Shown here: piece after piece, positions 1,305-64,000 of the stretch
How positions within the stretch are numbered: the stretch's first letter is position 1
How the letters are laid out: every line of letters begins with the position of its first letter
Notes under the pieces: model-generated
Databases searched by the model: none
What the model was told of the DNA's origin: nothing
The model's input: only the letters and a program-made list of their open reading frames with translations
Assembly (NCBI GenBank): GCA_037951105.1
Contig: JBAMJV010004022.1
Span: forward strand, 39,598 to 103,597
From: Echinarachnius parma
Lineage: Eukaryota > Echinodermata > Echinoidea > Clypeasteroida > Echinarachniidae
Direction: 5' to 3'
DNA: 64,000 bases
Made by a program: the position numbers and the translations under genes

Positions 1305-1405
1305 GTTCACATCATCAGCTTGTTGGGGGAGAAGCGGTTCAAGTCGTTCACCACGGTGTTGGACACCTACATAGATAACCACTTTGTCAGCACCCTAGCA
1401 CACCA
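1305..1405 (+). CDS. DOCK3/4: DOCK exon 1 of window
   Basis: Acceptor ACCGACAG, donor GTGAGT, phase 0 to 2. Reads [12 protein letters not shown] then [17 protein letters not shown]. This corresponds to the DOCK middle region (DOCK1 has a VLEKYIEQHF-type segment here). Upstream exons lie outside the window. Confidence 0.9.
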
Positions 1406-3816
1406 GTGAGTAGTAGGAGTACTCTACACTACACTTGTCTTGCATGAAATGCATGCCTAAATCAGGGCTCGACACTAGCACTTGCCCGCTTGCCCGGGGC
1501 AAGTAAAAATTGGTTTGGGACAAGGAAAATTATGTACATGTATATCGTCTAATTTGCTTGGCCGATCGGGCAGCTAAATAATTGTTTAGTAAACATACAT
1601 GTATGTTAGTGTATAATCACAGCCATTAACAAGTTTATTTTGTTATATAAATATAAATTGTGATTTGACTTTTTTCCACTTTTTTAGATGGCAGGCATGT
1701 ATGTATTAGTCCAGCTACTATAAAAAAATCTGTACAAGGTGGCTAGTCCAATAAGCAAAAAGGATCCTAATATATCATCACATGTTCAGAAATTATCAAC
1801 CCGTTCAGGACTGACTGATTTTGCTATAACATGTGTTCTCCATTGACCCTAGTATTTTCAGGACCATGCAGTCCTGAATGGGTTAATGGCATAATTAAGA
1901 TTCACTCAATATTGAACTTCAGGCCGCGTAGCCAGGATTTTTCAAGGGGGGTGTCACGGTGTAATTTACAAAAGTGGCCCAATACCAATCATGCCAAGAA
2001 CACTGGTTTAGTTGTTTAAAGGGTGGGGGGGGGGGGGATACGCACCCAACGCACCCCCCCCCCCCCCCCCTTGACTACGGGGCTGAACTTCCATTGTCTT
2101 GTTTCTTTCCTGTTCTATAGGCACCTAGTACACTACCTGATGATCTACATCGAGAAGGCAAACAGCTACAAAGACTCCCACATCACAAACATGCTGGAGG
2201 GTCTACAGTACCTCTTCAAATTCATCTTCAGATCGCATAAACTCTACAAGATGTGAGTAGCTTCATTTTCATGTATCTCACTATCATGATGATTATGATA
2301 TAAGGATAATTTTTTTTATTGTGATACAAGTTAGAGTGTGATAGTGAACCAATGGTACAAGTTGTGTTATAAAAAACCTACAAACAGCTCTACAATGATG
2401 CCCACATCACAAACATGCTGGTGGGACTGCGGTATCTTCAAATTCATATTTAGATTGCATATTAACTATGTGGGATGTGGGTTTGTAAGTTGTTGGAGAA
2501 AGTTGGTTTATTTGTTTACACATATGTATTTGTTTCTTAGACTGTTTCATGTAATGGTGAAAGATCCTTTTCTTATGCTACTTCTTTCCTATGGAACAAT
2601 CTTCACCTCAATATTCACACTTCTCACAATGTTGATACTTTTAAGTCCAGGTTGAAAACTCATTTGTTTAAGTTAGCCTTTTGTCTTTGTTCATACACAT
2701 GTATGTTTATATACCCTAACATTTAGTTTGGTTAATTTGTATGTAAATATTTGTAAGCGCTTAAGAGGCTTTTTGCAATATGCGCTATACAAATGTCTAT
2801 TTTTATTATTAATGGTTTTGTTTTTCTATCTGTTTTGTTACGTTTATGTATATTCTGTATTTATTTGATTGTTATAGGGCAACCGGTGATGTGCATGATG
2901 GTGACATGCAGGACTCCATTCGCAATCTGTTCCAGTCCATCAACGGCCTCATGCAGAGAGACGATGAGAGACTGGAAAAACATCAGGTCAGTCCCATGCA
3001 CAGTCATTTTTGTTGGCCATGACGGGGATCGAAATAGCACTGCATGGTTCAAGGGACCACCCCATAATGTGATTTGGGCTAGTAAAATAATATTGATGTC
3101 AACTTTCACTTGCCTACATATAAGTTTCAATGCTCTCTTTGCTCTTGTTATAAGTGTAAAGCGTTGAGGGATGATTGTGTTTAAATTAAACGTTACAAAA
3201 AGAACAGAAATCTTCATCCTGATTCCTGTGATAATTGTTATTATGACAAATAATATCTCTTTGTACAGCTGGTAGTGTTGAAGAAATTCAGCACCATCTG
3301 CAACGAGCTGATGGCGATGTCGATGTACACCGCTCCAGAAGTGAGCCAGTTCACGGCTGACCTCCTGGAGTGCATCCCACAGAAGCTACGAAGCCTCAAC
3401 GTCCAGAGAACCAAGCTGGAGTGCATCAAGGAAGCCATCAGCGGATCCCTCTTCAAGTCACAGAGTAAGAAAATGGTGGTGGTGATGATGATGGTGGTGG
3501 TGGTGGTGGTGGTGGTGGTGGTGGTGGTGGTGGTGGTGGTGGTGGTGGTGGTGGTGGTGGTGGTGGTGGTGGTGGTGGTGGTGGTGGTGGTGGTGGTGGT
3601 GGTGGTGGTGGTGGTGGTGGTGGTGGTGGTGGTGGTGGTGGTGGTGGTGGTGGTGGTGGTGGTGGTGGTGGTGGTGGTGGTGGTGGTGGTGGTGGTGGTG
3701 GTGGTGGTGGTGGTGATGATGATGGTAGTGATGTGATGATGGGAATTATGATGAGGAGGAGGAGGAAGAGGTCAGTGGAGGTGTTGATGATTTAATTATG
3801 ACTGTAATCATAATAG

Positions 3817-3859
<43 letters not shown>

Positions 3860-6800: not shown

Positions 6801-9800
6801 GTGGTACCCTTTAATGCTGAATTTTATTTGCTGGATTTGGAAACCAAGTAAAAGAGACATTTTTCCTATTATTTTGGAGCTACCAAATGTTGGTTTCAGC
6901 TGGCCAGTTTATGGCATGGTTTGCATCATGTGGTTGTTGCTGGAAATCAGGAAACAATCGTTATTATTAGCACTATTTTGTGTTTGGCATGTTTAATATG
7001 CTTGTAATAATGTAATGATTACTATAAACGTCATATGAATAGTGCAGGCCGAAGACCCGCACTGTAGCAGGACAAAGAGCGCACGATAACAAATGTACTT
7101 ACACGACTTTTACAATCGCATGTGTCACATTTTTGTGACAAAAAGCTGCATGAAGTTTGTGAACTTAATTTGACAATTGATGTTAATGTATGTTTTTAAT
7201 TGTACAGTGCATAAATAAGTACGTTCATGTATATTATATACAATTTTTTAATTTAAGCAAAAATATAAAATAATTGCAGCTGTTGTTGAACCGGCCACCT
7301 CCAGATTAACAACATCCTATTTTCAGTAGCTTGTCAGAATCTATCCACCGTGATGTTTAAAATATAGCCAAACCTTTGCATAATGACCACCCAAGAAAAA
7401 CAAGAATAATGGCCACTGTAGGCAGGTGACTTTTATAGACTAGTTTCCGCAACGTTGTTTTTCTCAGCAGGCGATGAGTTTTGCCGCCCACTATAGACAG
7501 GTTGGCTGCTATAAATGGGCCGCTCAGACAGGTCTGACTGTACTATGGTTGTCTTTTTTCGAAACATTTGAATTAAATCTTTCATAATTATGTTATAAGT
7601 TTGAAATCCATGTACATGTCAAAACCCAATTTAGCTGTAATGTTGGCATCACGTAGAGAAGGTTCCGACCTGCAAGATTTATACCAAAATTGACCGACCA
7701 CCCTTCTAACCCTCACCTGACAACATATCCTTTCACCCCTGCTAGACCCGCGCCATCACCTGCCTGATGGAAATGCTACGCCTGATGAAGGAACACCACT
7801 TTGCGGAGCTGGTCGACAGCTTTGACCACCCGACTTACAAGAGGGAGTTCCTCAGCTCCATCTTATCCCTCTTCAGCGAATGCGTGACCAAGGACGTCTA
7901 TTCCAGGGACTGGGTCACCATGCGCATGGTCACAAACATGTGAGTCACTATAGTTTACTAGGGTAGTCACTAGTTATAAGATCATTCACTAGTTACTAGT
8001 TACAAGGTTAGTCACTAGTTATAAGGTTAGTCCTTAGTTCCCTCTTCAGCGAATGTGTGACCAAGGACGTCTATTCCAGGGACTGGGTCACCATGCGCAT
8101 GGTCACAAACATGTGAGTCACTATAGTTTAGGGTAGTCACTAGTTATAAGATCATTCACTAGTTACTAGTTACAAGGTTAGTCACTAGTTATAAGGTTAG
8201 TCACAAGTTACAAGGTTAGTCGTTATGTAAGTACAAATACATGTACTAATTGAGTAATCAGTCAGCATTTATTTTTAGATGTTTGTTCAGATCTAAGCCC
8301 TGTTGCACAAGAGGGACTTTCTCAGCTTTATCATTCTGCTACTCTTTATCAAATGTGTGACCTATGTCTATTTGAGAGAATGGGTGACCATGGGCATGGT
8401 CACTAACAGGTTAGTTACTTGTTTACCAGGTAACTAGTCACAAGCTTAGTCATTATGTTAGTGCAAATACATGTACTAGTTGAATAGTTACATCAGTTAT
8501 TCATTTAGATGTTTAAGGGGTTTTAAGCCCTATCCCACAAGAGTAATTTTCTCAGCTCCATTATGTTACTGTTTTGTGAAATTTGTGACTAAGGACGTCC
8601 ATTCCAGGGACTACATTGTAGGTTACCATGCGTATGGTCACTAATGGGTCAAACACTAGTTTAAATGGTAGTTTGATAGTTAATGACCGATTGATTTAAT
8701 TGGTTGATTATAGAAAGTCCATTGCAAATTATGTACTTAACACGTGTTGTTTTTCTTTTGTTTGACTTCAGGGTACTTCAAACTGCAATAAAGACATTGT
8801 GCTGTGATCTCAATAGTGAAGACGTGAGAAGTGTAAGTGGCATATTTTGATTTCATTGATATTTAGATAAATATTCACAGTACAATTTCCGTAAGTTTAT
8901 GATCAGTGTATGACCACTTGTATGAGAGTTACTCCCAATCTGGTATTACATTAAATTCTGCTCATACCACTCTCTTTCTCTTCAGGCCCGTAGCCAGGAT
9001 TTTTCATGGGGAGATGCATAATTTACAAAAACGGGACCAAGACCACTTGCCAAAAAATTTCGAGGCTGAGATCACTGGCTGAGAGTCGTGTAAGCCGGTT
9101 AAGATGGTCGAGACCAATAAAAAGTGGACTCAAGACCTGTAAAAAGTTGACTCGAGACCGGCAAAAAGTGAACCTTTCTGAATTGGGGGGGGGGGGGGGG
9201 CGTATGCACCCAACGTACCCCCCCCCCCCCCTCCCCCCTGGCTACGGGCCTGCTCTTGTTTATCCTCTGAGTTTGGATGCAGTTCATCAGATGAAACACT
9301 TAATTATCCAACCAACACTACAGTTAGAATCATTTCCTGCTGCAGAACAGGCTTCCTGATAAAGCATAGTTCTGCAGGTGCATGTAATCTATAAATTGTC
9401 TCGTTAAATCTCCAGGTTCGGCATCAGTACTTCCAACTGATGGTGTACTTCATCATTCAGCCGGTCCTCCAGCTGGAGTCCTTCACCGCAGCCAAGCAGG
9501 AAAGACTCAAGGAAAAGTTTGGTGACATGAGGATCGAGATGACGAGGGAACTTATTCAGAAGTGGCACAGTCTAGGTAATTAATCCATTTATGTCATGTA
9601 TTTTTTACTTAAAGGGTACCACCACCCAAAAATAATATTCTTATAAATGAAAGGTAACATATTTAGTATTCCACTCCCTCAACAAGTTCACAAAATGCAT
9701 GCGTTCATGGGTCTGCATATACGAGACTACTTTGTCCAGAGCGAACGAATCGCCCGGGATTCTATTGTCTCCAAACGTACGCGTGAATAGCATTGGCGCA

Positions 9801-12800: not shown

Positions 12801-15800
12801 CGTGCGACCCTCACTATGCGCCTATCTATGTTTTTACACTGCAACGAATGTGTTCTTTTGATCGAACCAATACAATGCTCGATCATGAATAGTTTAGTCC
12901 ACGTTGCGCCACTCAACCGTGCCTTTGAGCATTACAGCATTGTTGAACCGTTTGAAAATACTTGCCTGCCCGAAATTGTAACACGTTTGGCTTTCATTGG
13001 AATTTGAATAGACACAAAGTCCTGTAAACGTGGTTATTGAATTTGTTGGCTCTGCATGACCGGCTATTATGAATGACACATGCAGTGATCACAATGCAGT
13101 GGCACCGGATTCAAGCCTACTCAAGAAATTGAGCAAAGTGAGGGTGCTACGTAAGGGTCTCATGATTGTGTGCAGTAAATTTAATTATTTCCTCAGAGTT
13201 AATGACATTAGAAAAATCTCTTAGAAATCAACCAAAGAGAGTCAAATTCTAAAAATATACAAGCACATCTATAGATTTATTTCCAATATACTGTATTTTG
13301 TTTTAACTAGTCCGGAATTCTCCTTTAATGTTGTGTTGTGATGTCCGCCCTTGCTAGTAAATGTTTGATATGACAATATAGTTTAATTAGTTGCATCATA
13401 ATGATAATAATAATAATGTTTTGGTTTATATAGCGCCTAATATGATTGATAATCATCTCTATTAAAGCGCTTTAGAATGATATTATCACCCCGGTCATCG
13501 GTCACACTCACAATCAATCCGCATATGACGTGCACTTTCTGCTCCCTTGGGAGCAAGGCATTCTGGCAGCCACAGGGCGCACTCAACGGTATAAAAGTAC
13601 AGTTGCATACACGTACATCATGATCAAACCTTATTATGTTTTGTTAATGTGAAAATGAAAAAAAATGCTAACAGAGACGAATCAAATGTTCCTGTTTTTT
13701 CCCTCGTCATTCAGAATTTCTACAAGAACGACGAGCGACGGAAGGACATCTACATGCGCTACATCTACCGGCTGCACGACCACCACCGGGTGGCCGGGGA
13801 CTTCACCGAGGCGGCCATGACACTCATGATGCACGCAGAGACGTTGAAATGGACGGAAGCGATTGTGCCTAGCGATGGAAGACACATCCAGCAGTCAGAG
13901 CGCGAGAGGAAGGAGACACTGTATGGGGAGATTATCGAGTTGGTCAAGAAGGGACAGGTGAGTTAGGGCGCTAACAAAGAAATGCGCATGTGGGACTGGT
14001 GAAGAAAAAATTTACTCTTTTTCTTTTTTCTTTTTTTGTCTGGCTTAGGTGTATTAGAGATTATAGTATGGAATTCTTCTGTGTAAGGAATTTTGAAATA
14101 AAGTGACTAAAATATATCTGTTTCACTTCATGAACCTTATTTTTTTTGTCTGCCATTGGTTAATTTTGTATGTTACCGCTTTTCATTGCCAAACAAAACA
14201 GAAGACCAAATCAAAGATCAAGTTGATAAGAAACATTAATATTTCATCACAAAATAATTTGTTTTGATTATGTATATTAGTTGTGTGAATATGACATCTG
14301 TTAATAAAGGAACTTGCAGCTGCATAGTAAGATATACATGTACATGTATGCACTATATTTATGCCGATTGTTTAATCTGACTCTTTCCTGTTTTTTGTTG
14401 TTTTTTGCTTAGGTTTGGGAGTATGGCATTCCCCTGTGTAAAGAACTGGCAGTGCAGTACGAGAGCAAGCTTTTTGACTACAAAAACCTCAGCGTTCAAC
14501 TGGTAAGACGATTAAGACTTCCTTGTCCCTCTTTTGTGTTCGTTAACGAATTCGAGAATAGATAATGAACTAATTAAGAGGAAACTTAAGTATACCATAT
14601 AACACTTGAATATGTATAGATGGTAGACACTTTTATTTGTATGCCTCTGCAACAAAGTGGCTGGAGGCGTTATCTTTAGTAATCATAAAGCTCAAGTTTC
14701 TTGTATTGCATGCAGTTGGTAAAAAATTAAAAGAAGCTTCCAAATAAACATACTGTATTACTTTGTATCATTAAAAGATAGAAAAGTAACAATGTGTTTT
14801 TTTCTAATTAGGCCTACATTGTGCATATTCAATAGACTACAATTTTAGTTACTGAACAAATAGAGAGTAGAAAGTTGTCTTGAGGATAAAATTGTTCTTG
14901 TTATTAATGGTAGTGATACCTTCTGATATCCTGTTTTTTTGTCTTCAGGTCACCCAAGCGCAGTTCTATGAGAACATCAGGAACCAGCCCAGGCAACCGC
15001 CAACCTTCTTCAGGATCAGATTCTTTGGGGCTTTCCCAATCCTCAGAAAGGTACAAATAACCAACTTAAATTAACTTCATTACAATCATCATACTTACCA
15101 GTGTCTCTTTTAAAGGGCAATGCAACTCAAGAAAAGAGTTAATACTACTTTATACATCGTAATATTCCTGTTTATTATATGTAACATTACGCATAGATGC
15201 GCATCTACCACAAGTATTCAGACAATGGTTTGAATAGGTGCTATTGAAGTGCATTAATGCATGAGGTCCGTACAAACCTAATAATGGCGGCCTCCAGTGT
15301 TCGCGTAAATAGTGGTAAAGCCGATAGTTTTCACATTTTTCTTCCAAAGCAGAAATCTGAGTCGGAGTAATGTTACATATAATAAACAGGAATATTACGA
15401 TGTATAAAGTAGTACTAACTCTTTTCTTGAGGTGCATTGCCCTTTAAGATACACAGGTAAGCATGATAGTCATTAGTAAATCATATACTCACTTCTCTGT
15501 CGGTTGACATCTCAGTTTTGATGAAAACATCAGGAATCAGCCGACGCAACCACCAACCTTCTTTAGGATCAGATGAAAATAACTTCATTACATCATACTT
15601 ACTAGTGTCCCTTTTAAGATACACAGGTAAGCATGATAGTCATTAGTATATCATATACTCACTTTTCTGTCGGTTGACATCTCAGTTTTGATGAAAACAT
15701 CAGGAATCAGCCGACGCAACCACAAACCTTCTTTAGAATCAGATTCTTTGGGGCTGCTTTCCCAATCCCCAGGAAGGTACAAATAACCAACTTCAATTTA

Positions 15801-18800
15801 CCTAAAGGGTTCCACCACCCAAAAATAATATTTGTATAAATAAAAGGTAACATTTTTAGTAGTCCATTCCACCAAAAACCAGAAAAATTATATAGTTGAA
15901 CAAAAAGCATCACCATACTACAACATGTGTTCATGGGTCTGCATACAAAGACTACATTTTGTCTAGAACGAATGCGTCGTCCGTGATTCTATTTTCTCCA
16001 AACGTACGCAAGACGTTCGGGCGCGTACGGAACCATGAGGCCACAATGGTTCCGTAAGAAGTGGTAATCAATTTAATTGTTTATGAATTACACAACCATT
16101 TGCAAAATGTTGGGCATATCACACAACTGTACCAAAACATATAATTATGTGCTTTCCTGGTGGTCTCCTTTAATAACATCAGAATTACCTTTGTCCCTTT
16201 AAGATACACAGGTAAGCATGATAGTCATTAGTAATATTGATAATATACTCACCTTTGAGTATTATGTTCAATAACTTGATTATGTAGCTGGTTATGTTAT
16301 GTAACAGTAATTACGAAATTGATGGTTCAAATCTAGCCTGAGATAAACATATCTCGCCTACCCATTTGTTTTTATTGTTTTATTTATGTTATAATTATGA
16401 TTAGATTTGATTAGTCAAAAATTTGTATTTGTGTTCTGTTTTTTATTAGCACCGTGAGTACATCTACCGGGGCCAGCCCTTTGACCAGACCCAGGTGGTC
16501 ACGCAGCGGTTCCAGGCAGACTTCCCCAAGGCCAAGAAATGGGGCAACCCCCAGCCCCCCACCGACCTGGAACTCCTCAACAACGAGCAGTGTATCCTTA
16601 CAAAATAATTTGTGATTGTTAGATTTGTTTGTGTGGTTGTTAGTTTGTTAATTTGTTTAGTTTGTATGTCACCTGATTTACCCAGAATCAGTGTGTGAAA
16701 CGTGGCAGCTAGAGCTGTTGTCATACTACTAATTGGTTGGGCAGCTCCAGAATCATGTATGACAACTTTTTGATTTTTGTTTGTGTGGTTGGTTGGTTGG
16801 TACTCAGTCGGTCGGTCGGTTTGTGTCGTTGTTAGTTTATTTGTTTAGTTGTATGTCACCTGATTTCAGGATTAATAAATGAAATGTGGCAGCCAGAGCT
16901 GTTGTCATGTAATAATTGGTTGGGCAGCTCCAGAATCATGTGTGACAATTTTTTGTTTTTTCACTGGTTGGTCGGTCAGTCGGTCGAGAGTGCGTGTGCT
17001 CACAACAAGCCATATATTCTTACAAAACAAAATTGGTTTTATAAATAGTTGATTGGTTAAAGAGTGGATTGGTTAATTTATTTATTGGTTAGTTTTTTTT
17101 TTCGCTATAATAAAATTGTCCTTTCCATTTTCATTGTTCTTATCCTTGACCCTCTCGGGTTCAGACATTGAGGTGCGGCTTGTTAACCCTGTCCCCCCAA
17201 AGAGGGCGCACTTGGAGACGCCCACCGTGCCACCTAACATCCGCTACTTTGCAGAGAACTATGATATCAACGTCTTCAGCTTCGACCGACCGTTCCACCG
17301 GGGGGTGAGGGAGAAGAACAAAGAGTTCAAGGTGGGTGCCTTTTGAATTGATTTTGGCGTCTTGACTTTTGACATGTTGCATACCGTTTATACCATGTAC
17401 AGTCAAACCTGTGTATAGTGACCATTTAGGGGAAAGAAAACAAAAGGCCATCATCGATATGCTACCTCTATCAATTTTGGGTGACCGCTCTAGGCGGGTT
17501 GGCTGCTGTAGACAGATGGCCGCTAAGACAGGTTTGACTGTTATTTGACAAAAGTGAAAGTCCTACCCATGCCAATGGGCACAAAGTTTAATTGCAACAT
17601 TCTACATCTGTGTTGCCATAGGCCAAACGGATTCTGTATATAGTTATCGCTTGTGCTCTAAATTCAGATGATTCACACTATCGCATGAATAAACATTGCT
17701 CACAGTGCGTACAAACATGACTGACTCATCGAACAGTAAGTGTTGCCCCATGATAGGGATTTAGGTGACACAGAGATTGGAGATATATATATAGATTATC
17801 ATTTGAAGTATGGTTTGATTGAAGAATAAAAATATGCTATCTGCTGTTTTGTATCTCTGTTGTGTAGACTCTGTGGGTTGAGAGGACTCAGCTGACCACC
17901 TCGCAAGCCCTTCCTGGACTACTGGGCTGGTCCGAGGTCATCAAGACAGAAATGGTAAGAATCATCAGCAACATCTGGGGGGGGGGGGGGGGGGGTGTTT
18001 CACAAAGTTGGACCTAAGTTGGACTTAAAACTTATGGAAAGCAGTTAGTTTCTTTGAAAAATTGTTGTAAAAGTAATTTTTTCAAAGGCATAAAATGTTG
18101 ATTCAAAGCATTAATATGTTCTATTATCATGGAGATTTCATGTTCTTGATGTAACATTTATGAAAACTCTGAAGTATTTGCCTTTTCGCTTTTGAATATA
18201 TTTTATTCCAAGGCTACAAATGGCTTTCCATAATAGTTAGGTCTAACTTAGAGTTAAGTTCAACATAGAATCGTTGTGAAACACTCCCCAGATGGTAACC
18301 AATCACATGGTCGAAACTCATTTGGTATTTGTCCGTTATAATGATTTAGGACTGGGGAATACCGAAGTAGTGAAGTAGTGAGGTCACATGCTTTTGTTAT
18401 GGCATAGTAATGGTTCTAAACAACTTTTCCTTTCATACTGGCCTGTGGCAGTGGGTTGGAGCTGGATGAAAGCCTTCTTAGCAACCGCTGGATCACCAAT
18501 TCATGCGGCTTGCCTGACATTGTTTAGAACCATCACCCATGGCAATGAATAGCTCTGACGTCACACTTCGGTACTCTATGGAGGTTGAGATTAAGTTTAG
18601 GTTTAGGGACCTGGGTCAAATTTGTGGTTAGGGAATTGGACGTTACAGGGACTATATACCTGTACTTGACCTAATGGTATTTGACCAACTACTATTAGGT
18701 AAACCTTAGAGAGATTTATAAGATTACCTAAAAGGTATTTACATCGTTCCCATACAAAAGCCAAGGAAAGATTTAATTTGGACAGAAATTAATTTTGTTT

Positions 18801-21800
18801 TATTTGCTTCATTGTAAATACATCCTAATCCAGAATGCAGTCTTTGAACTTATTTTTTTTACTTGATAATAATAATAATAATATAATATATTTGTATAGC
18901 ACCTACTGCATGCCAGCCTCTAAGCGCTTTGAGAAGAAAGTTGTAGATAGAGTCTATGTTTGAGCTATGACTGATAGTGTTCTTTGAAGAGAAATGATTT
19001 CAGGTTGAGTTTGAAAGAGTCAACAGAAGGAGAGGTTTTGGGAGAGCGTTCCAGAGATAGGGACTGATGAAGGAAATCTGCGCTCACATATGCGTGTTTG
19101 TCATGCTTGTGTGCCATTTCATCGTAGTAAGATGTGATGCATATAGAAGACACTCTCAGCCCCACGAGGAATAAGAATGCCTCCTGCATTCTTCAAACTC
19201 TCAGAAATGTCCTCTAACGCGTTCAGGACTGACTGATTCTGCTACAACATGCATTCTCCATAGACCCAAGCCCGAGTATTTTCAGGGACCAGTCCTGAAT
19301 GGGTTAACATGTTGCAGACAAATTTGAATTTAATATATTTTCGAAATACCCAGGAATATATGATAACTTTGGCTGGGTGTCTATAACGCCCCCCAAAAAT
19401 ACTTTTTTTATTCACTTTTATGACTAGTATGCTCCCCAAGGAGTTGAGAAAATACACAATGTCATGATGTGGGTTTCAACTGTAGCTGATGACCATGGCA
19501 AATAACGCTGGGGTGTCACATCTTGACATACATGAGTAGGATATACAAAAGACTCCACTATACTTGTTATCATTTCACTATCCTCTCCGTTCATTATATG
19601 AATTTGTAGCAAGAGATCAGGCCCATAGACAATGCCATTAACACCATGACCAACAAGAATCTTCAGACAAGGCAGACCATCAAGGAATACCGCTCCCACC
19701 GCAACTCCAGCATCAACCCCCTCAGTATGGTGCTCCAGGGGTCCATTGATGCAGCAGTGCAAGGGGGTCTTAAGGTCTACCAGGAGGTAAGATGGAGGGA
19801 TAGATGGATGGATAGAATGATGGATGGATAGATGGATGGATGGATAGATGATGGTTGGTTGGATGGATGGATAGATGGGTGGATGGATAGATGGGTGAAA
19901 AGATGGATGGATGAATGGATGGATGGCAACGGATGAATGGATGAAATGATAGATGGATGGAATGATCAATGAATGGACAAATGGATAGAGAGGATGTTGG
20001 ATGGATATATCAAATGATAGATTAATTGATGGATTGTTGCAAGAATAGATGATAAATAAAACGTAACCATTTGCAAAAAGTTGTTGGATTTTAATTTTCT
20101 GCAATATATAATAATCGATAGAGATGAGACTTTAAATTTTCATTCTTTTCTTTTCCATTTAACCAGATATTCCTGACTGCTGAGTATGAGGAGAATAATC
20201 CCGATGACAAGGAGGCAATGCAAAGTCTGAGGAAACTCATGAAGGATCAGGTAAGTCGGTCATGGTCCATCCCTATCGGCTGGTTGGTTATTTGGTTTTT
20301 ACAGAATTCTGTGTTCAATCAACCTTGATTATTTTCCTCAGGGTATGATCCTTTATCGTCACCATTGGAATGACTCCGCCGATGTTTGAACCCATGCCAA
20401 TTAGTGCGACGAGCATAGCTCTGACCACTAGACCAGATCACCTCTTAAAGTGATCCAATATTAAAAAGACTTTTTGTTGTTTGGGGAATTACTTTAGTAT
20501 TTCTTTGTTTTTTGATGAAATCAGTTATTAACCATTGTCCAACCATCTTAAACCCAAAATAAATTAATTGCAGTAATTAGAATTTTAAAAAAATGTAGGT
20601 TTCATAAATCCTATGAAGGAAAAACAGAATCTGGTATCAAAAGATATGCAATTCTTCAATGAAAAAACGAAACAACAGGAAGGCAGTGAGTGTCAGGACT
20701 GCATAGCCAATCAAACTAGGCTGGGACTGGAGGGAATGTGCACAGAGAGATGGTTATGTAACTAAGGTCAAAGAAAGTGGAGTTGGGGTGTATGGATTTA
20801 AGGTAAACAAACATTTCTACCAATATTTTCTGCAGGTGAGAATTCTTGATGATGGCGTGCTGCTACACAAGCAGCTCTGCCCTGAATAACTCAATATAAA
20901 TATATGTGCATGGTACACAATGTTTTCCTTAAAAATGACTATTAACAACTTCTTCTAATATCCCCATCAAAGGGTTATATCTTGTGAATGTTTGAAAACA
21001 TTTCTACCAATATTTTCTGCAGGTGAGAATTCTTGATGATGGCGTGCTGCTACACAAGGAGCTGTGCTCCGAGGAACTCAAGGGCTTCCAGGATAACCTG
21101 GAGAAGAAGCTTGCTGAGCTCATGAAGGAATATGATCTGGTTAGTATAATTATCATCATACGGTCAAACATGTCTACAATGACCACACAAAGAAGCTGTC
21201 TTTTTGAGCAGGTGGTCTTAATACACATATATATTCGTTTGTAAACTATGTTTAAGGGGAACAAGAATAGTTATCTCTAAACTAAGGCAGATGATCTCTA
21301 TAGACAGGTGTTCACTAGAGGAGGTTTATCTGTATGTACATGTACTATATTTAGTTAAAATATTATTATTATTATTATTATTTAGTTGAATTATTTTGAT
21401 TTCAATGTTATTTAAATGTAAATTTGTTGAATAAGTCGCTAATTAATTAGATTTTTAGTAAAGAGCATAATGCATTATAAAGTAAATTATTATGATTATT
21501 AATTATTATTACTGTAGAAATATATACAGTCAAACCTGTCTTAGCAGCCACCTGTCTATTTTAGCCAACCTGCCTACAGTGGCCACCAAAAGTGATCCCC
21601 TGCAGAGAAAACAGTTTAATGGAACCTGTCTACAGTGGCCACTTTTCTTGTTTGACTGTTTATTATGCAATAGAAAAACAAAAAATAAGAAGGATTATTT
21701 TTTGCAATTATTCACGTTGGCACCAGTGCACATACATTATTGATATTACACAGCTATTGGTTCATTGAACAAAATGCAATTATCCACTCCCTATGGAGCA

Positions 21801-55046: not shown

Positions 55047-57053
55047 TTATTGTATGAAGAATTATATAATATTGTCAAGGTTGAGAATGCATTTCTATAT
55101 ATTGATAGTCTTGAGAATATATTTGGGATTAAGGGAAAAGGTGTGTTTTATTTTTATACAAACTGAATTACATGTTCATATTATAATCATGGCATTTACT
55201 TAAATAAAATTTATTATCAGTCTTACATACATCTTTGATCTTGTCTTTATGTTGTGAATCATGGGTGTCAACAGGGGGGAATATGGGTGGGGGAGGGGGG
55301 GGTGAGTGACTGAGCAGAAAAGTTATAAAATATGAGTGTGGATGGTGATAAATTGATTGATTGATTAAATGATTTTTTATAATAAACTGCTGGATGGCTC
55401 TTAACCAGGAATGCCCGCATGGCACTCCTGATTTTCTTATACAAAGTAGTCAAGGGGACATGGGGGCACTTCCCCCTTGCAAAGACAAATCAAAATAAAC
55501 AGAGAATAAGACTGAGAGTGCCCCCCTCCCCCCCCCCCCCTGTCCCATAACAACAGTAAAGCCAACACTATCAAAATCTATTTATGATAGGTTTGACACA
55601 ACTCCTTCATCCCGTATTCCTCATCCTCCCTAAGTCACAGCCCCCCGATCTCCCCTCATGTGACAAATTATTTCATTAATTTCCATAATTTGAAAAAAAA
55701 CAATAGGAAACTTAAGGGGACCTTTTTTTTTTTAAACAAAGAAATACATAGGGTGTTTTGAAAAAACAAAGAATAAGGTATGCCTCACCCCCCCCCCCCC
55801 CCCCAAATCAGTCTGACCATGCAACGCCACTTCCCTTGTTTCTTCATCCATACCCCCCCCCCCCCCCCCCCCCTGCGAGGGTACTCCCTATATATACCTG
55901 GCACTATAGGTATATGTGCCCTCCTTAAGACCGACCCCCTTCAGCTCAATTTTTTGTTCCGGAGACCCCCAAAATCCTAAATATTAGCCGTTGCGCTGTT
56001 CTGCAGACCCCCAAATCCTAATTACAGGCCGTTCCGACCATTCCGACCATTCTGCCCTTATTGTATGAAGAATTATATAATATTGTCAAGGTTGAGAATG
56101 CATTTCTATATATTGATAGTCTTGAGAATATATTTGGGATTAAGGGAAAAGGTGTGTTTTATTTTTTACAAACTGAATTACATGTTCATATTATAATCAT
56201 GGCATTTACTTAAATAAAATTTATTATCAGTCTTACATACATCTTTGATCTTGTCTTTATGTTGTGAATCATGGGTGTCAACAGGGGGGAATATGGGTGG
56301 GGGAGGGGGGGGGGGGGGGTGAGTGACTGAGCAGAAAAGTTATAAAATATGAGTGTGGATGGTGATAAATTGATTGATTGATTAAATGATTTTTTATAAT
56401 AAACTGCTGGATGGCTCTTAACCAGGAATGCCCGCATGGCACTCCTGATTTTCTTATACAAAGTAGTCAAGGGGACATGGGGGCACTTCCCCCTTGCAAA
56501 GACAAATCAAAATAAACAGAGAATAAGACTGAGAGTGCCCCCCTCCCCCCCCCCCCTGTCCCATAACAACAGTAAAGCCAACACTATCAAAATCTATTTA
56601 TGATAGGTTTGACACAACTCCTTCATCCCGTATTCCTCATCCTCCCTAAGTCACAGCCCCCCGATCTCCCCTCATGTGACAAATTATTTCATTAATTTCC
56701 ATAATTTGAAAAAAAACAATAGGAAACTTAAGGGGACCTTTTTTTTTTTAAACAAAGAAATACATAGGGTGTTTTGAAAAAACAAAGAATAAGGTATGCC
56801 TCCCCCCCCCCCCCCCAAATCAGTCTGACCATGCAACGCCACTTCCCTTGTTTCTTCATCCATACCCCCCCCCCCCCCCCTGCGAGGGTACTCCCTATAT
56901 ATACCTGGCACTATAGGTATATGTGCCCTCCTTAAGACCGACCCCCTTCAGCTCAATTTTTTGTTCCGGAGACCCCCAAAATCCTAAATATTAGCCGTTG
57001 CGCTGTTCTGCAGACCCCCAAATCCTAATTACAGGCCGTTCCGACCATTCTGC
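55047..57053. repeat. 1-kb near-identical tandem duplication
   Basis: 55047-56057 and 56058-57053 match throughout (start TTATTGTATGAAGAATTATA, end CCGTTCCGACCATTCTGCC). The differences are mostly in the lengths of G and C runs. No gene; the repeated open frames in the two copies are the same sequence. Confidence 0.95.
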
Positions 57054-57939
57054 CTTTCTTCGGCATTACCTGGCGATTCGCTCCGGAGACCCCCCTTGCA
57101 AACGGAGCTATCTGCTCTGGATTCCCCTACATATTGGAATCCTGGGAGGGCACATATGTCTACCTACCAAAAATGTGGTGAAATGCCCCCCCCCCCCCCC
57201 CCCCCCCCCGGTTCCCCCCTTCCTTACCACTATAAACAACATGCACCCAGTCCAATTCAGCATCTTTTCAACTTTGTTAGCTTTACATGAAAGGTAAACT
57301 AATGTACACGTTTTGGTCACTTGTCAAAATTTATAGGTGTTGTTTTCTCGAGTGAAAACACTGTAGGGTAATTTAAAAACAACAATAAAGCCTCATTATT
57401 CTGCCTTCAGTCTCTATTTCGATTTTTAGCAATTATAATTAGCAAATTTTTGACAATTTTTATGTAATTGATGAAAACAAAATATATCCAAATACCCCCG
57501 CGCTCCTTCCTTGTTGTTATTTCTCGAATTTCTCGACCAAATTACACAAAAGGGAGGTACTGTATACAAGTTCAGCCTGGAATTCAGACTAAATCGCACT
57601 GGTCTTGCGTAACACTACAGTCTACACAACAGTGTTCTGCTCGTGAAGATTTCATCATCAATTTGAACATCTATTACCTGGAAGTTGAGAGAGAAACTGG
57701 AGAAATCAAAATCATTTTGAATTTTGTTGTGTCATAATTAGTTAGAAATACGTGTATATAACCATTATACTGTTTTAAATCATGAATCGACATCAAATTT
57801 TGAACTGTAGTTTTTCTTCGTGGTACGCAAACTTCGTAGAGCACACGATTGAGAGGTAAGCAGTAACGTATTGTGAATACATGTGCGAAACTAATTGAAT
57901 TCGCTTCTGAAGCTCTTGGCTCTTTTTCTATTATGGTTG
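57054..57939. other. gene-free stretch
   Basis: A C-run of about 25 at 57187-57211 and otherwise AT-rich sequence. No exon or element recognised. Confidence 0.5.
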
Positions 57940-59240: not shown

Positions 59241-59352
59241 TGGGAGCAATAGTTCTACGTGTGTGTATAGTACACCTACCATACATGGATTCTGGGCTAA
59301 TTATTAAGAAATACTTTTAAGTCAAACATTATTTGAAAGAGAATATATATAC

Positions 59353-59402
59353 AATGCAATTCTTAAGAACTAATATTATTAGTTCTAAAGAATTGAATTG
59401 TA
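59353..59402. repeat. 50-base hairpin
   Basis: ACAATGCAATTCTTAAGAAC then TAATATTA and GTTCTAAAGAATTGAATTGT: nearly perfect inverted arms. Confidence 0.8.
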
Positions 59403-59786
59403 TAAATGCAGACTTCAGTTTAACAAACAATGTCTACACTTATCTTAGCTCTGCATCTTCGTCTGCAGTTCAAAAACATTTCATCATTAAAAAATAATAT
59501 TATTCCTTTGGGCCTTTGAGTGTGACTTGACTTTATCCCTTTTTGGGACTTGTCCCCAAAATATTCAGACTGGAGTCTATAAAGAAAACATGTAATACTA
59601 AAATCAACCAGTCTTGTAGGAGTTGATTGTTATTTGTTTATTCTGGTAGATTCCTTTAAAATGTGATGAATTATGAAATTTTAATTTTCACTTTATCATT
59701 AATATTGGACAAGAACAATGCAAAGATGGTAATACTTATTTTATCACTCTATATTAATCTAAAATATTGCCTTTATTTTCTACCAG

Positions 59787-59855
59787 TGAAATCATCAAGT
59801 TGCCTCAAAACTTTGTTGATTATCTTCATGCGGATGGAGTGTATCTTCCTCCGAG
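59787..59855 (+). CDS. CDC123: CDC123 exon 2 (first recognised)
   Basis: Acceptor TTCTACCAG, donor GAG|GTAAGA; the first base completes a split codon. Reads [20 protein letters not shown] then PP, like 'KSVILPLPQNVKDYLLDDG' of human CDC123. Confidence 0.93.
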
Positions 59856-62800
59856 GTAAGAATAAAGTATGTTTTTTTGTAAATATGTTACCGAAAGTAT
59901 CTTTATTGGCCAAACTAATTGATCAGTATTGTTGAAATAGTATAAAAACGGCTTGTGTGGAAAAATCATTACCTTAGTATTGTTAAATGCAGAAATATCA
60001 GTTGAAATCTTAATGGATGCTGCTAACATTGGGCCTAAATTCACTGCCAGTTTGGCTCGTATACGCCGGTCCCTGGCCACATCATCCCCCGAAAAATAAA
60101 TATTAATTTTTTTCCCTGCGTTCGCATACGAAACCACGTAGGCAGCATTTGCCATAGTTTTTGCACGCAGCGCAAAGGGTGCATATCAAAATACAACTGT
60201 CGGCGATATGGATCAATGCATTGATCGTTTTCTAATTTTGCAAATACAATTAGTAGGTGGTTTCCTGGCCAAATTTGTATAATCCCATATTAATAATGCA
60301 TCCTTCACATGGTTTGTAATAAGAGCGTACATTAATTTTTTGGGTGTGGGGCATTTCCTATTACTGTGTATACTTTTTTTTATGTATGTATCTGTTATAA
60401 TTTTTGCTCTACAGTAAAGATGAAATGCATGAACAGAACCAGGAGCCATCACCAAATGTAAGTCTGATAAAAAATTGAACTACCCACTAATTGTAATGGG
60501 CATTAAATCATTCAGTTCAGTATACTGGTCCTAAAAATACTCTGGCTGGATTTTGTAGAGAATGCTAAAATAGTTTTAAATTGGTTAAAAGGTAGAATGC
60601 TCGAAATTAGCATAGGCCCGATGGCCCGGGGCCACCAAAAATTGTTGTCGGGCCAGTAAAAAACTCATATTTCAAAGTTTGGTGGCCCGATTGGGCCAGC
60701 AAAAAAAAAGAAAAAAAGTTTAGTCCTGTCTAGGGCATGACAAGAGCTTGCTTTTAAATGTAGCATTCAGCAACTTATACTCTTTTCTCACATACAAAAT
60801 ATTGGTAGTTAAAAAGTTGCAAGTTAATTGTGCAAGTAACACTGCTGCTAATGAATATTTATACATTCTTCAGCAGCAGTACTCATTTTCTAACCAGTTA
60901 TAAAAAAAAGTTTCATATTAAAAACCGTTGTTAGTAATTTCAGTTATTTTGCTTATTTTGCATATCTAATGAGCATCATGAATATTCATATATGCTGCTC
61001 ATGAATATTCATATATTACTACTATATATCACAATTTTAAAATATGTCTTTTGTCTAAGGTGTTCAGACAACACTGTACAGAATTTTGTCACCTAGACAG
61101 TAGACCCTGACTATGTATGACTGGAAGTGAAATTGTCACTCGTGTGTATTCAATCGCTGTGATTTTTTGATGAAGACAATGAATAAAAAGACATGACAAA
61201 TGATGACACACACACATTCATCCTAATTCATGTTTATTTAATTCATCTTACAATGAAACAAAGGGGAATGAAAAATAAAAAGTATTGCCTAGTACCAAAG
61301 ACTGTAGTAGCCTAAAACTATTCATATGGTTATTGTATTCATTTTACTTTTGTTTTTCCTTATTTTTTTCGGGCCACCAAATTTGGAAAAATACTAATTT
61401 CACTGGCCCGACCGGGCCACCAGTAAAAAAAGTTAATTTCGAGCATTGAGTAAGGTATTGTTATTTTACATGCTATGTTTTGTCTAATAATGTAAGGACA
61501 TCATACCTATAAACGAAATTAATTCATGTCTCACTGTCCACCTTTTTATTATTCATTTAATGTTTGGAGATCTCAGTTTTTACTTGTAATATGGTCTCCA
61601 TTATAAATGTATTCCACTTTATATTTGTAGGGGTTATAGGCCTTATAGGTTCAGTGCACATGTACATTGTTATTGCATTCTTTTATTGGATACATTAATT
61701 AATTTTGTTCATTAGTCTTTGCTTCTGAGTTCAACCTTGTTATGATAAATATTATTTCCTAATTTGATCTGTATAGGTACCATCATTCCCTGAGCTGTAT
61801 GCCAAGATAGAACGTGCAATCAACCAGCTTGGAGGGGCAGTGTTTCCCAAGCTCAACTGGAGTGCGCCAAGGGTGAGTCTATCCTTTGCTGGGTTGGTAG
61901 CTAGAAATGTTTTTTAAATTTAACAATTTCCAAAAATTCCAAAATATATAATATATAGCGCACATTCCGCCTTTCGACACTCGCCACACATCACTAGTAT
62001 TACGTTGGTCATTGTATGCACACTGCAATCAGTCCAGCACACAAGGTGCACATTTTCCACCCCCTGGTGAGCATTCCAGTAATCTCATAGGAGCACAGAG
62101 TGCTAAGGAACAACGTTCCTATCCTTCTAGGTAACCACTTGCACACCCGGGTCGAGACCAGCAAATATAGATAAAAATAGGCTTCAGAGTCAAGATTATG
62201 GGTGGTCACAGTGTCTAATTTTCGCTCTGACAAGATGCATCCTGGAGTGCATGTGGTGATTCCCTGAACGACATTCTTCTGCTTCTCAAAAGACACTGTT
62301 CTAGAACCTCTACAGTGGCCCCTTTTCTTGTTTCTCCTTTGGTGCCTTTCACTATGCCCAGGTCTGACTGTATTTCAACATGCCATTGTCACTGATAATG
62401 TCTAATTGTTTGTTTTTTTACAGGATGCCTCCTGGATTGCATGCGGTAATTCCCTGAAGTGTCACTCCATGAACGACATCCTTCTGCTCCTGAAGAGCTC
62501 AAACTTCATCTCACACGACCTCACACAGCCGTAAGTGTGCTTGTATGTACAGGCATTTTCGCTTACTGATGAAAGTAACGTCATCTGACCTTGCATTAAC
62601 AAAGCGCGTATAGAACCACTGACACAGCAGCAGTTTTTTGCAACTTTTCAAACCTCAAACTGTACTCAATTATATCTTTATTTCATTTTAGTGAAAGTTA
62701 AATTTGGGGTTTAGGTTTACTGTTAGCCTACTATGATAAGAGTAAGGGGTAGCATTGGTGTTTGGATTTGGTTAGGGTTTGAAATCCTTTTTTTTGGGGG

Positions 62801-63852
62801 GGGGGGTTATGAACAATTAATAATAGTTGAGCAACTATAGCCAAAGTAAATGTAATAGAATCATGCATGCTTGTCTTAAAATAATTGTTTGTTGTAATCC
62901 AAAACCCAAATTTTTAAAAAATGATGAAAGTTTGTGTAAAGTCAGTCAAAAAATTAGAATGTTATGACAGTGAAATTTCTGCCAGCATGTAATTATTTGA
63001 TGATACCCCATACAAATTTGTGTTTATGCTTTAATATAAATAATATGACCTCTAAATTATCAAGTTCAGGCCTGACTTCTTTCTTTTGAATTCTTTTTTC
63101 TCCAGCTTTCAACTGTGTCCCGAGGATGAGCAGTCAACAGAACAAGTCCAATATGAGGTTAGTCATGATAATAATAATAATGATACATAGCATTCATAGA
63201 GCACCATGTATCTAGGTGCCTTATTCAGAGACGCATTATTACCCTTACGTCATTAGGTACAGTTAAAACCCGCACAATTATCTTGCACACCATCTCAACT
63301 AGCCCAATCTGCTGTACTATATATGGCCTACAGGCTATTAATCTAACACCCAACCAAGTACTCATTTATCTGCACATTTTAGACACAACGAAAGCTATTG
63401 CGAAACATTATGTTGTTCCAATCTCAGCAGCGCAGACATTTTTGCAGAGCTGCATTTAAATTTTGCCATCTAAATTTGTTCTTATACATTAATAAGTAGG
63501 GCCAGTATACATTGTACATGTACACACTTTCTGTAACTTTGCCAAACGTAGCTATTTAGTTTTAAATATATATAGACAACATAATCATAAACCTGTAGGG
63601 TACAATACTTCATTTTACTATTTGATTTTTCCATTTTCATCTTTCGTCTGCAGCTGGTTTTACGGCGATGGATGGAGATCCCTCCGTCGATGGAATTCCG
63701 AGTGTATGTGGCGAACCAGGAGGTGATCGCCATTTCACAGCGCGATAGCACCAGTTTCTTCCCCTGCTTGCCGCCCATGGTCGACGACATCACCTACGAG
63801 ATAATCAACTTTCACGATAGACACGTTGCCAGCTCGTTTCCAGACGATCATT
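59787..63852 (+). CDS. CDC123: CDC123 (D123 family) eIF2 assembly factor, 5' portion (6 exons seen)
   Basis: Six exons with consistent phase give [80 protein letters not shown], and [20 protein letters not shown] with IAISQRD. These are the hallmark blocks of Cdc123/D123 ([37 protein letters not shown]). Family knowledge: Cdc123 is an ATP-grasp-fold protein that binds eIF2-gamma and promotes eIF2 heterotrimer assembly in the cytoplasm. About 189 residues are in the window, against about 336 in the human protein. The exon carrying the start codon was not recognised, and the last exons are beyond 64000. Confidence 0.95.
60415..60457 (+). CDS. CDC123: CDC123 exon 3
   Basis: Acceptor GCTCTACAG, donor GTAAGT. 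Reads [14 protein letters not shown], in the position of the variable acidic linker of the human protein. Only 43 bases, fixed by phase on both sides. Confidence 0.85.
60598..61446. mobile_element. 850-base element with GGCCCG-rich terminal inverted repeats
   Basis: TGCTCGAAATTAGC, GGGCCAGTAAAAAA and GGTGGCCCGATTGGGCCAGC at the left match inverted CGGGCCACCAAATTTGG, CTGGCCCGACCGGGCCACCA and AATTTCGAGCA at the right. No transposase inside. In CDC123 intron 3. Confidence 0.78.
61777..61872 (+). CDS. CDC123: CDC123 exon 4
   Basis: Acceptor CTGTATAG, donor AGG|GTGAGT, phase 0 to 0. Reads [20 protein letters not shown] then [12 protein letters not shown], matching '[29 protein letters not shown]' of human CDC123. 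Confidence 0.97.
62234..62292 (+). pseudogene. decayed partial copy of CDC123 exon 5
   Basis: GATGCATCCTGGAGTGCATG, TGGTGATTCCCTGAACGACA and TTCTTCTGCTTCTCAAAAG follow exon 5 with substitutions and loss of 18 bases (the AAGTGTCACTCCATG region). No AG acceptor directly in front. Confidence 0.88.
62300..62372. mobile_element. partial CAGTCAAACCTG-family element
   Basis: CTACAGTGGCCCCTTTTCTT and CCCAGGTCTGACTGTA match the right half of this family. It abuts the exon 5 copy. Confidence 0.65.
62424..62530 (+). CDS. CDC123: CDC123 exon 5
   Basis: Acceptor TTTTTACAG, donor GTAAGT, phase 0 to 2. Reads [20 protein letters not shown] then [17 protein letters not shown] decayed copy with a deletion lies upstream at 62234-62292. 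Confidence 0.97.
63106..63157 (+). CDS. CDC123: CDC123 exon 6
   Basis: Acceptor TTCTCCAG, donor GTTAGT, phase 2 to 0. Reads [17 protein letters not shown], like 'PFIHCTDDSPDPCIEYE' in human CDC123. Confidence 0.93.
63168..63360 (-). mobile_element. LINE/SINE 3' tail remnant
   Basis: ATAATAATAATAATGATACA then TAGAGCACC and AGGTGCCTTATTCAGAGACG: weak match to the reversed GCGC...(ATT)n tail. Confidence 0.4.
63654..63852 (+). CDS. CDC123: CDC123 exon 7
   Basis: Acceptor CGTCTGCAG, donor CATT|GTAAGT, phase 0 to 1. Reads [37 protein letters not shown] and [17 protein letters not shown], corresponding to the 'EFRCFVKENKLIGISQRD' core of the family. A copy of part of it starts about 95 bases downstream and runs off the window. 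Confidence 0.96.
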
Positions 63853-63944
63853 GTAAGTTAAATAGCCATCACAATTTACTTTGCTTTAAAATGCTTTGGC
63901 ATTGTCTTGTCATTGGGACAGTGCATATGATAGAAGAGTTGATG

Positions 63945-64000
63945 AGATTTCACAAGTGGATAGCTCCAGTTTCCTCCCCTGCTTGCCGCCCATGGTCGAC
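63945..64000 (+). pseudogene. partial copy of CDC123 exon 7, running off the window
   Basis: GATTTCACAAGTGGATAGCT then CCAGTTTCCTCCCCTGCTTG and CCGCCCATGGTCGAC match 63733-63785 with few changes. No acceptor is visible in front. The end of the copy is outside the window. Confidence 0.9.

Follow-up and report, generated by a model that had tools for sequence, protein, structure and literature searches.

Partial exon copies lie close to many exons in the genome of Echinarachnius parma

Among all the exon sets examined in the Echinarachnius parma genome, 36 of 87 tested exons carry a nearby partial copy of themselves, called an echo throughout this report. We consider it probable that these echoes are explained by local duplication that is blind to exons, combined with selection that holds the exon side of each pair. 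The mirages of lancelet genes and the pseudogenic exons of mammals are known relatives of the echoes, and it is their density and spacing that are novel here.

The window is a 64,000-nucleotide stretch of contig JBAMJV010004022.1 carrying exons of a DOCK gene and of CDC123. From the 36 exons listed in a preliminary description, 31 were pinned, with border shifts of 1-3 bases in some cases. No count includes the exons left unpinned, namely CDC123 exons 3 and 6, DOCK exon 6, and some of the tail exons. Pinned exons were compared with 1 kb on each side, and 40 reversed stretches served as the control for the window. Tests beyond the window were run in the 1.2-Gb assembly of the same species, which holds many loci twice.

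All eight exons previously named as having local copies (DOCK exons 2, 7, 15, 21, 27, and 28, and CDC123 exons 5 and 7) indeed have them, with scores above those of the controls (Table 1). Beyond these, DOCK exon 9 and, weakly, exon 14 also have local copies. The exon 14 echo scores 21 compared to 13 for its control and carries a stop. The exon 9 echo reaches a DNA score of just 15 versus 13 for the control, yet gives a protein z of 8.1.

Table 1. Exons, echoes, and other duplicated features of the window, with the score of each exon's echo and of the top control.
Feature	Position	Strand	Echo score / top control	Remarks
DOCK exon 2	2121..2252	+	51 / 13	tblastn, splice sites
Exon 2 echo	2381..2482	+		copy of 2159-2258, shift 222
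DOCK exon 7	7746..7939	+	72 / 15	
Exon 7 tandem copy	8039..8209	+		copy of 7866-8039, unit 173; last 74 bp of exon, donor, and intron
Second exon 7 echo	8307..8408	+		decayed
Third exon 7 echo	8537..8644	+		decayed; tandem with second echo, unit about 230
Exon 9 echo	9285..9351	+		absent from the preliminary description
DOCK exon 9	9416..9575	+		
Exon 14 echo	14065..14137	+		weak, decayed; absent from the preliminary description
DOCK exon 14	14413..14502	+		
Exon 15 copy A	14930..15130	+		diverged; entire exon, donor, and intron
Exon 15 copy B	15440..15617	+		acceptor and first 59 bp of exon
DOCK exon 15 (copy C)	15686..15776	+	58 / 12	member of eroded three-copy array
Dispersed element	15803..16173	+		interrupts intron 3' of exon 15
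Exon 21 echo	20809..20894	+		acceptor and first 59 bp, shift 187
DOCK exon 21	21023..21139	+	47 / 12	
Array 5' of exon 27	36927..37329	+		units of about 143 bp, crossing acceptor 23 bp into exon 27
DOCK exon 27	37307..37543	+	21 / 15 (5' side)	proline-rich tail, LPPRK motif
Array 3' of exon 27	37534..38061	+		68-bp units from last 10 bases of exon and donor; decayed outlying copy
Tandem unit at exon 28	39171..39364	+		194 bp; acceptor and first 44 bp of exon 28
DOCK exon 28	39510..39690	+	36 / 13	paralogue of exon 27 retained as exon
Youngest large tandem duplication	55047..57059	+		unit 1011 bp; no exon called inside
CDC123 exon 5 echo	62230..62290	+		upstream; lacks about 15 bp
CDC123 exon 5	62424..62530	+	27 / 14	
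CDC123 exon 7	63654..63852	+	44 / 13	
CDC123 exon 7 echo	63936..64000	+		clipped by window/contig end

The three copies ascribed earlier to exon 7 were recovered as exonic matches at 8039-8112, 8307-8408, and 8537-8644, and the tandem copy is identical to the exon at 73 of 74 exonic bases. The two echoes claimed for exon 15 match it at 14968-15050 and 15516-15574. Erosion can be seen directly in this array: an alignment gap of about 48 bp removes the exon end and donor from copy B, and copy C picks up again at about 16170, beyond the dispersed element. The same array contains one inverted repeat. Exon 27 is copied at both borders, as had been proposed, by a 143-bp array on the 5' side and a 68-bp array on the 3' side, the latter with about five copies whose exonic part is only the last 10 bases. 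Exons 27 and 28 suggest that a duplicated border has turned into a new exon. The repeat unit spans an intron/exon boundary at exons 7, 15, 27 (both borders), and 28, and elsewhere at loci L041, L058, and L059; the cores of the exon 9 and CDC123 exon 7 echoes stop short of any border. Multi-copy arrays are found at exon 27 and exon 15 (three copies), many other echoes are two-copy, and the D2 echo is gapped.

Duplication in the window also extends to introns. The five intronic duplications reported previously are real, with starts at 16627, 34040, 36053, 44349, and 55047, and the 1011-bp unit of the last has an identity of 0.998 across 995 bases. Local direct matches scoring at least 100 number 56, compared to 6.5 local inverted ones, and the reversed control gave 0.

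For echo frequency, a copy scoring at least 20 within 600 bp of the exon was counted. Such copies accompany 9 of the 31 exons pinned in the window, 3 of 13 DOCK exons held out upstream of it, and 24 of the 43 distinct exons from myosin/kinesin loci, the last set representing 43 of 60 loci once L008, whose flank was cut, and 16 nearly identical second copies had been dropped. Unrelated flanks gave 0 matches in 342 at this score.

A survey of 242 kb of the same genome yielded 120 duplication events, of which 36 touch exons and 84 are intronic. Copy-to-copy distances cluster near 190 bp: 29 of the 36 exon events lie at 155-245 bp, and the 170-214 bp range takes in 42 of all 120 events, compared to 16 and 12 for the 45-bp ranges on either side. 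The range of 140-240 bp holds 81% of exon events versus 43% of intron events. With 8 of the 120 events at about 365-409 bp, there is a hint of a second step, which would fit a nucleosome ladder. Matched length is anticorrelated with spacer length (r of -0.76 for exon and -0.71 for intron events), as is expected for a fixed unit that was later truncated. Adjacent pairs remain in 7 of the 36 exon-touching events and 30 of the 84 intronic ones, and at identities of at least 90%, spaced and adjacent pairs each account for 17 of 39.

We propose that local duplications, most commonly at a distance near 190 bp, would arise genome-wide regardless of exons. When a unit crosses an exon border, a copy without the full exon and its splice partners would remain unused and decay, and the parent exon would be held by selection, such that the pair diverges mostly on one side. 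Given this one-sided divergence, an exon pair would stay recognizable longer than a pair of intron copies. Units could later be truncated by deletion, split by insertion, or lost. Most echoes probably began as adjacent tandem units, as 37 of 120 events still are, and the machinery may be replication-linked, stepping one nucleosome or Okazaki length.

A different birth step, compatible with the persistence of exon pairs proposed above, would be the writing back of a copy some distance away during replication, through template switching or re-ligation of a flap, giving duplications with an internal spacer like those described for FEN1-deficient cells, instead of tandem duplication followed by erosion. 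This is possible, and we give it the lesser chance. Spaced pairs outnumber the 37 adjacent ones, 60 of the 120 events having spacers of 26-200 bp and 23 having spacers above 200 bp, and the ends are abrupt on both sides at exon 21, whose echo carries a stop and is separated by a 101-bp dissimilar spacer, and at L016 and L037. At L037, the other haplotype has a different 194-bp stretch, which fits a copy having been inserted some distance away. The distance is also near nucleosome length, and in published work such events are tied to the ends of Okazaki fragments, located at nucleosome midpoints (PMC13334657, PMC13202174). However, inverted copies inside spacers were found in 1 of 71 spaced pairs versus 0 of 71 controls, with no FEN1-type triplication and unlike the inverted triplications described. 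Moreover, the anticorrelation between length and spacer is that of a truncated tandem unit, and the genome has FEN1-like exons, which speaks against a loss of FEN1.

In the window, the duplicated share is 9.4-13.0% of exon bases versus 9.5-11.6% of intron bases over five thresholds (rotation p 0.37-0.47, not significant), and 7-9 exons are touched versus 4.2-5.7 expected by rotation (p 0.08-0.10). The exon and intron shares are uneven, at 26.5% versus 2.6% in the CDC123 region and 5.7% versus 12.5% in the DOCK tail. When window exons with a copy are compared to intron segments of the same length, the counts are 10 versus 12.4, 9 versus 7.4, and 9 versus 5.8 at thresholds 14, 16, and 18 (p 0.87, 0.31, and 0.11), and 9 versus 4.8, 7 versus 4.3, and 6 versus 3.9 at thresholds 20, 25, and 30 (p 0.04, 0.13, and 0.19). 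For myosin/kinesin exons the same comparison gives 24 versus 12.8 expected at scores of at least 20 and 18 versus 7.4 at scores of at least 30, which may be conservative given that the intron control left exon parts outside the family match unmasked.

Across the 242 kb, 36 of 120 events touch exons versus 21.2 under random placement, and 31 of 110 versus 19.3 (about 1.6-fold) after removal of repeats (four whose sequence occurred at two loci, and six similar to events elsewhere). The generally high local duplication rate offered previously as the simpler explanation is supported, with exon-touching events exceeding random placement. The excess sits at 80-95% identity (7 of 19 versus 3.1 at 90-95%, and 16 of 44 versus 7.8 at 80-90%). 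There is no excess below 80% (5 of 31 versus 5.2) or at 93% and above (4 of 21 versus 4.2, a class too small to distinguish factors of 1.0 and 1.5). Three of the 120 events, one of them exon-touching, have less than 70% identity and fall outside all three coarse identity bins. The idea that the excess grows with age was dropped, as finer identity bins place it only at 80-95%.

With 35% of exon sites degenerate, which is our own estimate from site counts, one-sided change predicts about a 2/1.35 = 1.5-fold visibility. The size of the exon excess is what one-sided decay alone predicts, and thus a process aimed at exons is not required, although a mild one is conceivable. Duplication could be directed to exons from birth, for example if transcription, positioned nucleosomes, or the ends of lagging-strand fragments placed breakpoints in exons. 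The overall excess, its presence already at 90-95% identity, the much tighter distances of exon events, and the many matched myosin/kinesin exons all argue for such targeting. We judge it unlikely in view of the lack of excess at 93% identity and above, the share of duplicated exon bases in the window, which is not significantly raised, and an overall factor near the value for one-sided decay. The tight distances could instead reflect selection against short units that place a second splice site near the true one.

Several observations sit uneasily with the preferred reading of exon-blind duplication and one-sided decay. Steady one-sided decay predicts a similar factor at every identity, whereas the excess is found only at 80-95%, and the contrast between myosin/kinesin exons and introns exceeds the predicted factor. 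The low number of pairs still adjacent, the abrupt ends at exon 21, L016, and L037, the strong synonymous bias of some echoes, and the uneven shares within the window also speak against it. The age pattern is no proof of blindness at birth.

That the copies were made repeatedly over time, as originally stated, holds, but divergence does not tell time cleanly, given the constraint on the exon side and the divergence between the haplotypes themselves. Mismatches favor degenerate codon sites. Those in window pairs other than exon 9 affect 45 of 516 nonsynonymous versus 62 of 274 degenerate sites, and in 24 genome-wide pairs they affect 147 of 1480 versus 191 of 798. The synonymous bias is stronger than one-sided decay predicts for the exon 9 echo (8 of 44 versus 18 of 23) and for several others, such as L024 (1 of 91 versus 11 of 50). 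Allele capture, in which an echo derives from another haplotype, was considered as a source of strong bias in some echoes.

Many echoes might instead be functional, serving as alternative (mutually exclusive) exons or splice decoys. Consistent with this, the exon 9 echo has kept its peptide with synonymous sites near saturation, genome-wide echoes such as L054, L029, L057, and L030 are open and conserved, and exons 27 and 28 offer a precedent for a retained duplicated exon. We nonetheless find this reading improbable. Overall, the codon-site ratio comes close to the value for one-sided decay, and many echoes are incomplete or interrupted by frameshifts or stops, with several young or partial ones still open. 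The exon 9 echo meets an in-frame TGA at 9357, and a search by eye found neither a right-phase acceptor nor a donor for it. Apart from exon 15 copy A, which spans the exon, every echo in the window is missing one or both splice borders. Echoes are presumably unspliced, and exon 15 copy A, L054, and L029 are candidate mutually exclusive exons.

An assembly artefact, whether from unmerged haplotypes or tandem-stitched repeats, is highly improbable despite the many loci duplicated in the assembly, as most copies are diverged, many have their own indels and stops, and 6 of 10 echoes recur in the second copy of the locus (3 are absent and 1 is ambiguous, assuming that these are haplotypes and not paralogues). 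The three absent echoes point to turnover, and L059/L062 provides a clean presence/absence of 158 bp. Transposon or cDNA capture was rejected for border-crossing copies, as these contain intron sequence along with splice sites.

Intron gain by tandem genomic duplication is said to involve duplications that make extra splice borders. Unlike in that process, no new intron is demonstrated here. Mirages of the lancelet Adh gene, as described, share units of tens to about 160 bp over either splice border, imperfect copies, and haplotype-variable copy number, and reportedly leave splicing undisturbed. Those descriptions concern single genes, whereas we sampled the genome and measured exon overlap; the echoes are usually two-copy, often truncated or spaced, with a distance mode near 190 bp. 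Mammalian pseudogenic exons, reported in 0.4-1.0% of genes, likewise lie near their own gene, are disabled by stops or frameshifts, and include old and young copies (Morais & Harrison 2009, PMC2718932). By comparison, our 36 of 87 exons come from a more permissive DNA search and have mostly partial copies; at the tblastn cut-off of that report (E<=1e-4), 7 of 31 window exons (D2, D7, D9, D15, D21, C5, and C7), plus the 27/28 pair, have a copy near the gene. The study of tandem exon duplications by Ivanov & Pervouchine (2022, PMC9013439) also searched exons against their own gene, and gives the exonic bases with a copy of at least 80% over the whole gene as about 2% in human, 0.08% in fly, and 0.06% in worm. 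Our three exon sets give 9.4%, 12.7%, and 17.9% within only 600 bp, with a different aligner. FEN1-linked duplications and small inverted triplications in yeast and cancer share a nucleosome-scale unit (148/160/148 bp there) and duplicates with an internal spacer (PMC13334657, PMC13202174). Spacers here lack an inverted copy, and the events are germline, on an evolutionary time scale.

We tentatively raise the possibility that the main structural mutation in this lineage duplicates about 190 bp, the length of one nucleosome or Okazaki fragment, that chromatin dictates both breakpoints, and that echoes are the fossil record of this mutation. Such a record would be readable because selection freezes one copy, and exons would thus act as reference clocks for the process. 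If echoes are widespread, each stage of a small duplication (birth, decay, and loss), along with its length and breakpoints, would be measurable in the germline. The same record would show how frequently copied splice borders are tolerated, die out, or turn into new exons. Through its closeness to one nucleosome repeat, the distance would tie a common structural mutation to lagging-strand replication.

Partial copies of exons in neighboring noncoding DNA, here termed echoes, are real and are present in every exon set sampled. The preliminary description had named eight exons with such copies (DOCK exons 2, 7, 15, 21, 27, and 28 and CDC123 exons 5 and 7), and all eight are confirmed by scores above those of reversed-sequence controls. 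Local copies of DOCK exon 9 and, more weakly, exon 14 bring two further cases. For the gene models, Pfam scores exceed the cut-offs for TPR_DOCK and D123 but fall under them for the DHR-2 lobes, the PDB match for the DOCK-family gene is to DOCK5/DOCK2, and the tblastn queries were human proteins. We pinned 31 of the 36 exons first described, on which our counts rest; for DOCK tail exons 23, 26 to 28, and 30, the calls rely on splice sites together with coding score, not on homology.

Features of the window, with coordinates and basis or remarks
Feature	Coordinates	Strand	Basis or remarks
DOCK-family gene, 3′ part	exons 1305 to about 49222	+	Pfam, PDB, tblastn, splice sites
CDC123, 5′ part	57782 to window end	+	Pfam, tblastn, splice sites
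Exon 15 copies A, B, C	14930-15130, 15440-15617, 15686-15776		C is the used exon
Inverted duplication in exon 15 array	15088-15190, 15367-15467		93%
Exons 27, 28	37307-37543, 39510-39690		paralogues
Dispersed element, five copies	6377-6818, 9604-9984, 15797-16175, 27878-28308, 29421-29823	both	sequence likeness, 67-89%; about 400-450 bp
Inverted repeat	250-627, 754-1133		arms of 380 bp with 90.5% likeness, separated by about 126 bp
(TGG)n run	3474-3730		about 86 units; starts about 10 bases past DOCK exon 4 donor
tRNA-like match	4415-4484	-	Rfam 33.6 bits; not reported by ARAGORN; perhaps a SINE head
(TTAGGG) run	42288-42313		short, about four units, between exons

Local direct duplications are frequent all along the window, with 56 pairs scoring at least 100 compared to 0 in the reversed control. 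The clearest intronic examples are adjacent units, and several of the exon pairs show truncation or a spacer. The exon 15 array, three copies of a unit that contains the whole exon, shows how such units erode: copy B lacks about 48 bp, including the exon end and donor, and the unit of copy C is split downstream by one of the five copies of the dispersed element. In the 194-bp exon 28 unit, the exon part is 91.7% preserved, versus 75.3% for the intron part. Exons 27 and 28 also resemble each other (protein score 132, compared to 68 for the top of 200 shuffles), and both are kept as exons and carry an LPPRK motif. To judge from their sequences, this pair is a duplicated exon retained as an exon. 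The motifs are possibly SH3 ligands.

Enrichment of copies at exons was assessed in the window against predictions from same-length intron segments at six score thresholds, and by rotation. At a score of at least 20, 9 of 31 exons have a copy versus 4.8 predicted (p 0.04); at 16 or more, the same 9 of 31 compare with 7.4 (p 0.31), and at the loosest threshold 10 were found versus 12.4 predicted. Under rotation, 7-9 exons are touched versus 4.2-5.7 expected (p 0.08-0.10), and covered exon bases show no significant excess (p 0.37-0.47).

The host assembly comprises 1,200,326,526 bases in 14,790 contigs, and the window takes up the final 64 kb of its contig, which is 103,597 bp long. Thirteen DOCK exons lying upstream, beyond the region first described, were located using DOCK1/DOCK4 sequences; 3 have copies at a score of at least 20 and 4 at 16 or more. 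We also sampled 60 loci, the best 30 of 82 myosin-head and the best 30 of 134 kinesin-motor exon matches; 16 near-identical copies and a single locus whose flank was cut were removed, which left 43. In this sample, which consists of long, strongly conserved exons rather than random ones, a copy lies within 600 bp of 24 exons out of 43, versus 12.8 expected from intron segments. Copies were found in 0 of 129 reversed controls for this set, and in 0 of 342 unrelated flanks for all exon sets together. Exonic bases with a copy of at least 80% identity within 600 bp number 438/4659, 193/1522, and 1717/9612 in the three sets. Elsewhere in the assembly, HECT genes or exons are clustered locally on contig C2731, where 12 kb (48212-60786) contain several HECT-domain matches, one of them with stops.

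A tile scan of 242,209 bases (the host contig plus the 43 exon-centered loci) yielded 120 non-overlapping duplication events, 36 of which touch exons versus 21.2 by random placement (p 0.001). After removal of four events with the same sequence in two loci and six resembling events elsewhere, 31 of 110 touch exons versus 19.3 (p 0.0045). Exon overlap is 3/16 versus 3.4 expected at 95% identity or more, 4/21 versus 4.2 at 93% or more, 7/19 versus 3.1 at 90-95%, 16/44 versus 7.8 at 80-90%, and 5/31 versus 5.2 under 80%. By our own calculation, duplications that arise irrespective of exons and then decay on one side only would raise exon overlap about 1.5-fold, whatever the identity. The overall factor is 1.6, and the identity bins scatter around the prediction, the youngest holding too few events to tell 1.0 from 1.5. 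The preliminary description had preferred a generally high local duplication rate as the explanation. That reading is supported; echoes are mainly attributable to such a rate together with longer survival of exon-containing pairs.

Differences by codon site bear on this survival. Excluding exon 9, exons and echoes in the window mismatch at 45/516 nonsynonymous versus 62/274 degenerate sites, and 24 genome-wide pairs at 147/1480 versus 191/798. This asymmetry is expected for a constrained exon and a freely changing copy, provided that third positions rich in G/C have a somewhat higher mutation rate. Exon 9 differs: mismatches at 8/44 versus 18/23 sites indicate that its echo was probably coding through much of its history. 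Today the echo meets a TGA at 9357, and inspection by eye found no in-phase splice sites for it. Exon 7 echoes 2 and 3 (13/133 versus 27/66) lean the same way, as do some genome-wide echoes. A kinesin exon (L054, contig C4289) and a myosin exon (L024, C660) each have a nearby copy with an almost unchanged peptide, and the L024 copy has a one-base frameshift; both copies could be alternative exons, either still living or only recently dead.

Many loci, such as those on C5007/C5926 and C4543/C2695, are present twice in the assembly. The two versions are 93-99% identical where flanks align and differ by large indels over distances of a few kb, perhaps reflecting a very diverse, uncollapsed diploid. 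Taking second copies by assumption as alleles rather than recent paralogues, ten echoes can be compared: six are in both (L015, L020, with different spacing, L023, L041, L044, and L051), three in one only (L037, L058, and L059), and one (L049) is ambiguous. L059 and its counterpart L062 show a clean 158-bp difference; because the two units diverge more than haplotypes do, L062 may have lost one copy. At L037, the other haplotype carries a different 194-bp stretch in place of the echo, and the flank of L058 is too rearranged for a clean empty site.

Among the copy-to-copy distances visible to the tile scan (about 80-900 bp), 42 of 120 events fall at 170-214 bp, with 16 at 125-169 bp and 12 at 215-259 bp. 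Exon events concentrate at 155-245 bp (29 of 36, none under 158 bp), whereas intron events spread more widely (43% at 140-240 bp). Adjacent units make up 37 of 120 events (7/36 with exons, 30/84 without); the copies are separated by spacers of 26-200 bp in 60 events and by longer spacers in 23. Spacer and matched length are anticorrelated, and thus it is the start-to-start distance that varies less. The mode approximates a nucleosome repeat or Okazaki fragment length, and may be linked to either. FEN1-linked duplications have been tied to the ends of Okazaki fragments located at the midpoints of nucleosomes (PMC13334657, PMC13202174).

Lancelet “mirages” are described as tandem duplications spanning intron/exon borders (PMC3087553, PMC3902484), and decaying exon copies are on record in mammals (PMC2718932). 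Our literature search, with subscription papers mostly outside its reach, found no genome-wide tally of echoes that cross exon borders and have a distance mode near 190 bp. This kind of phenomenon is already known, and its density and distance mode are the new part.
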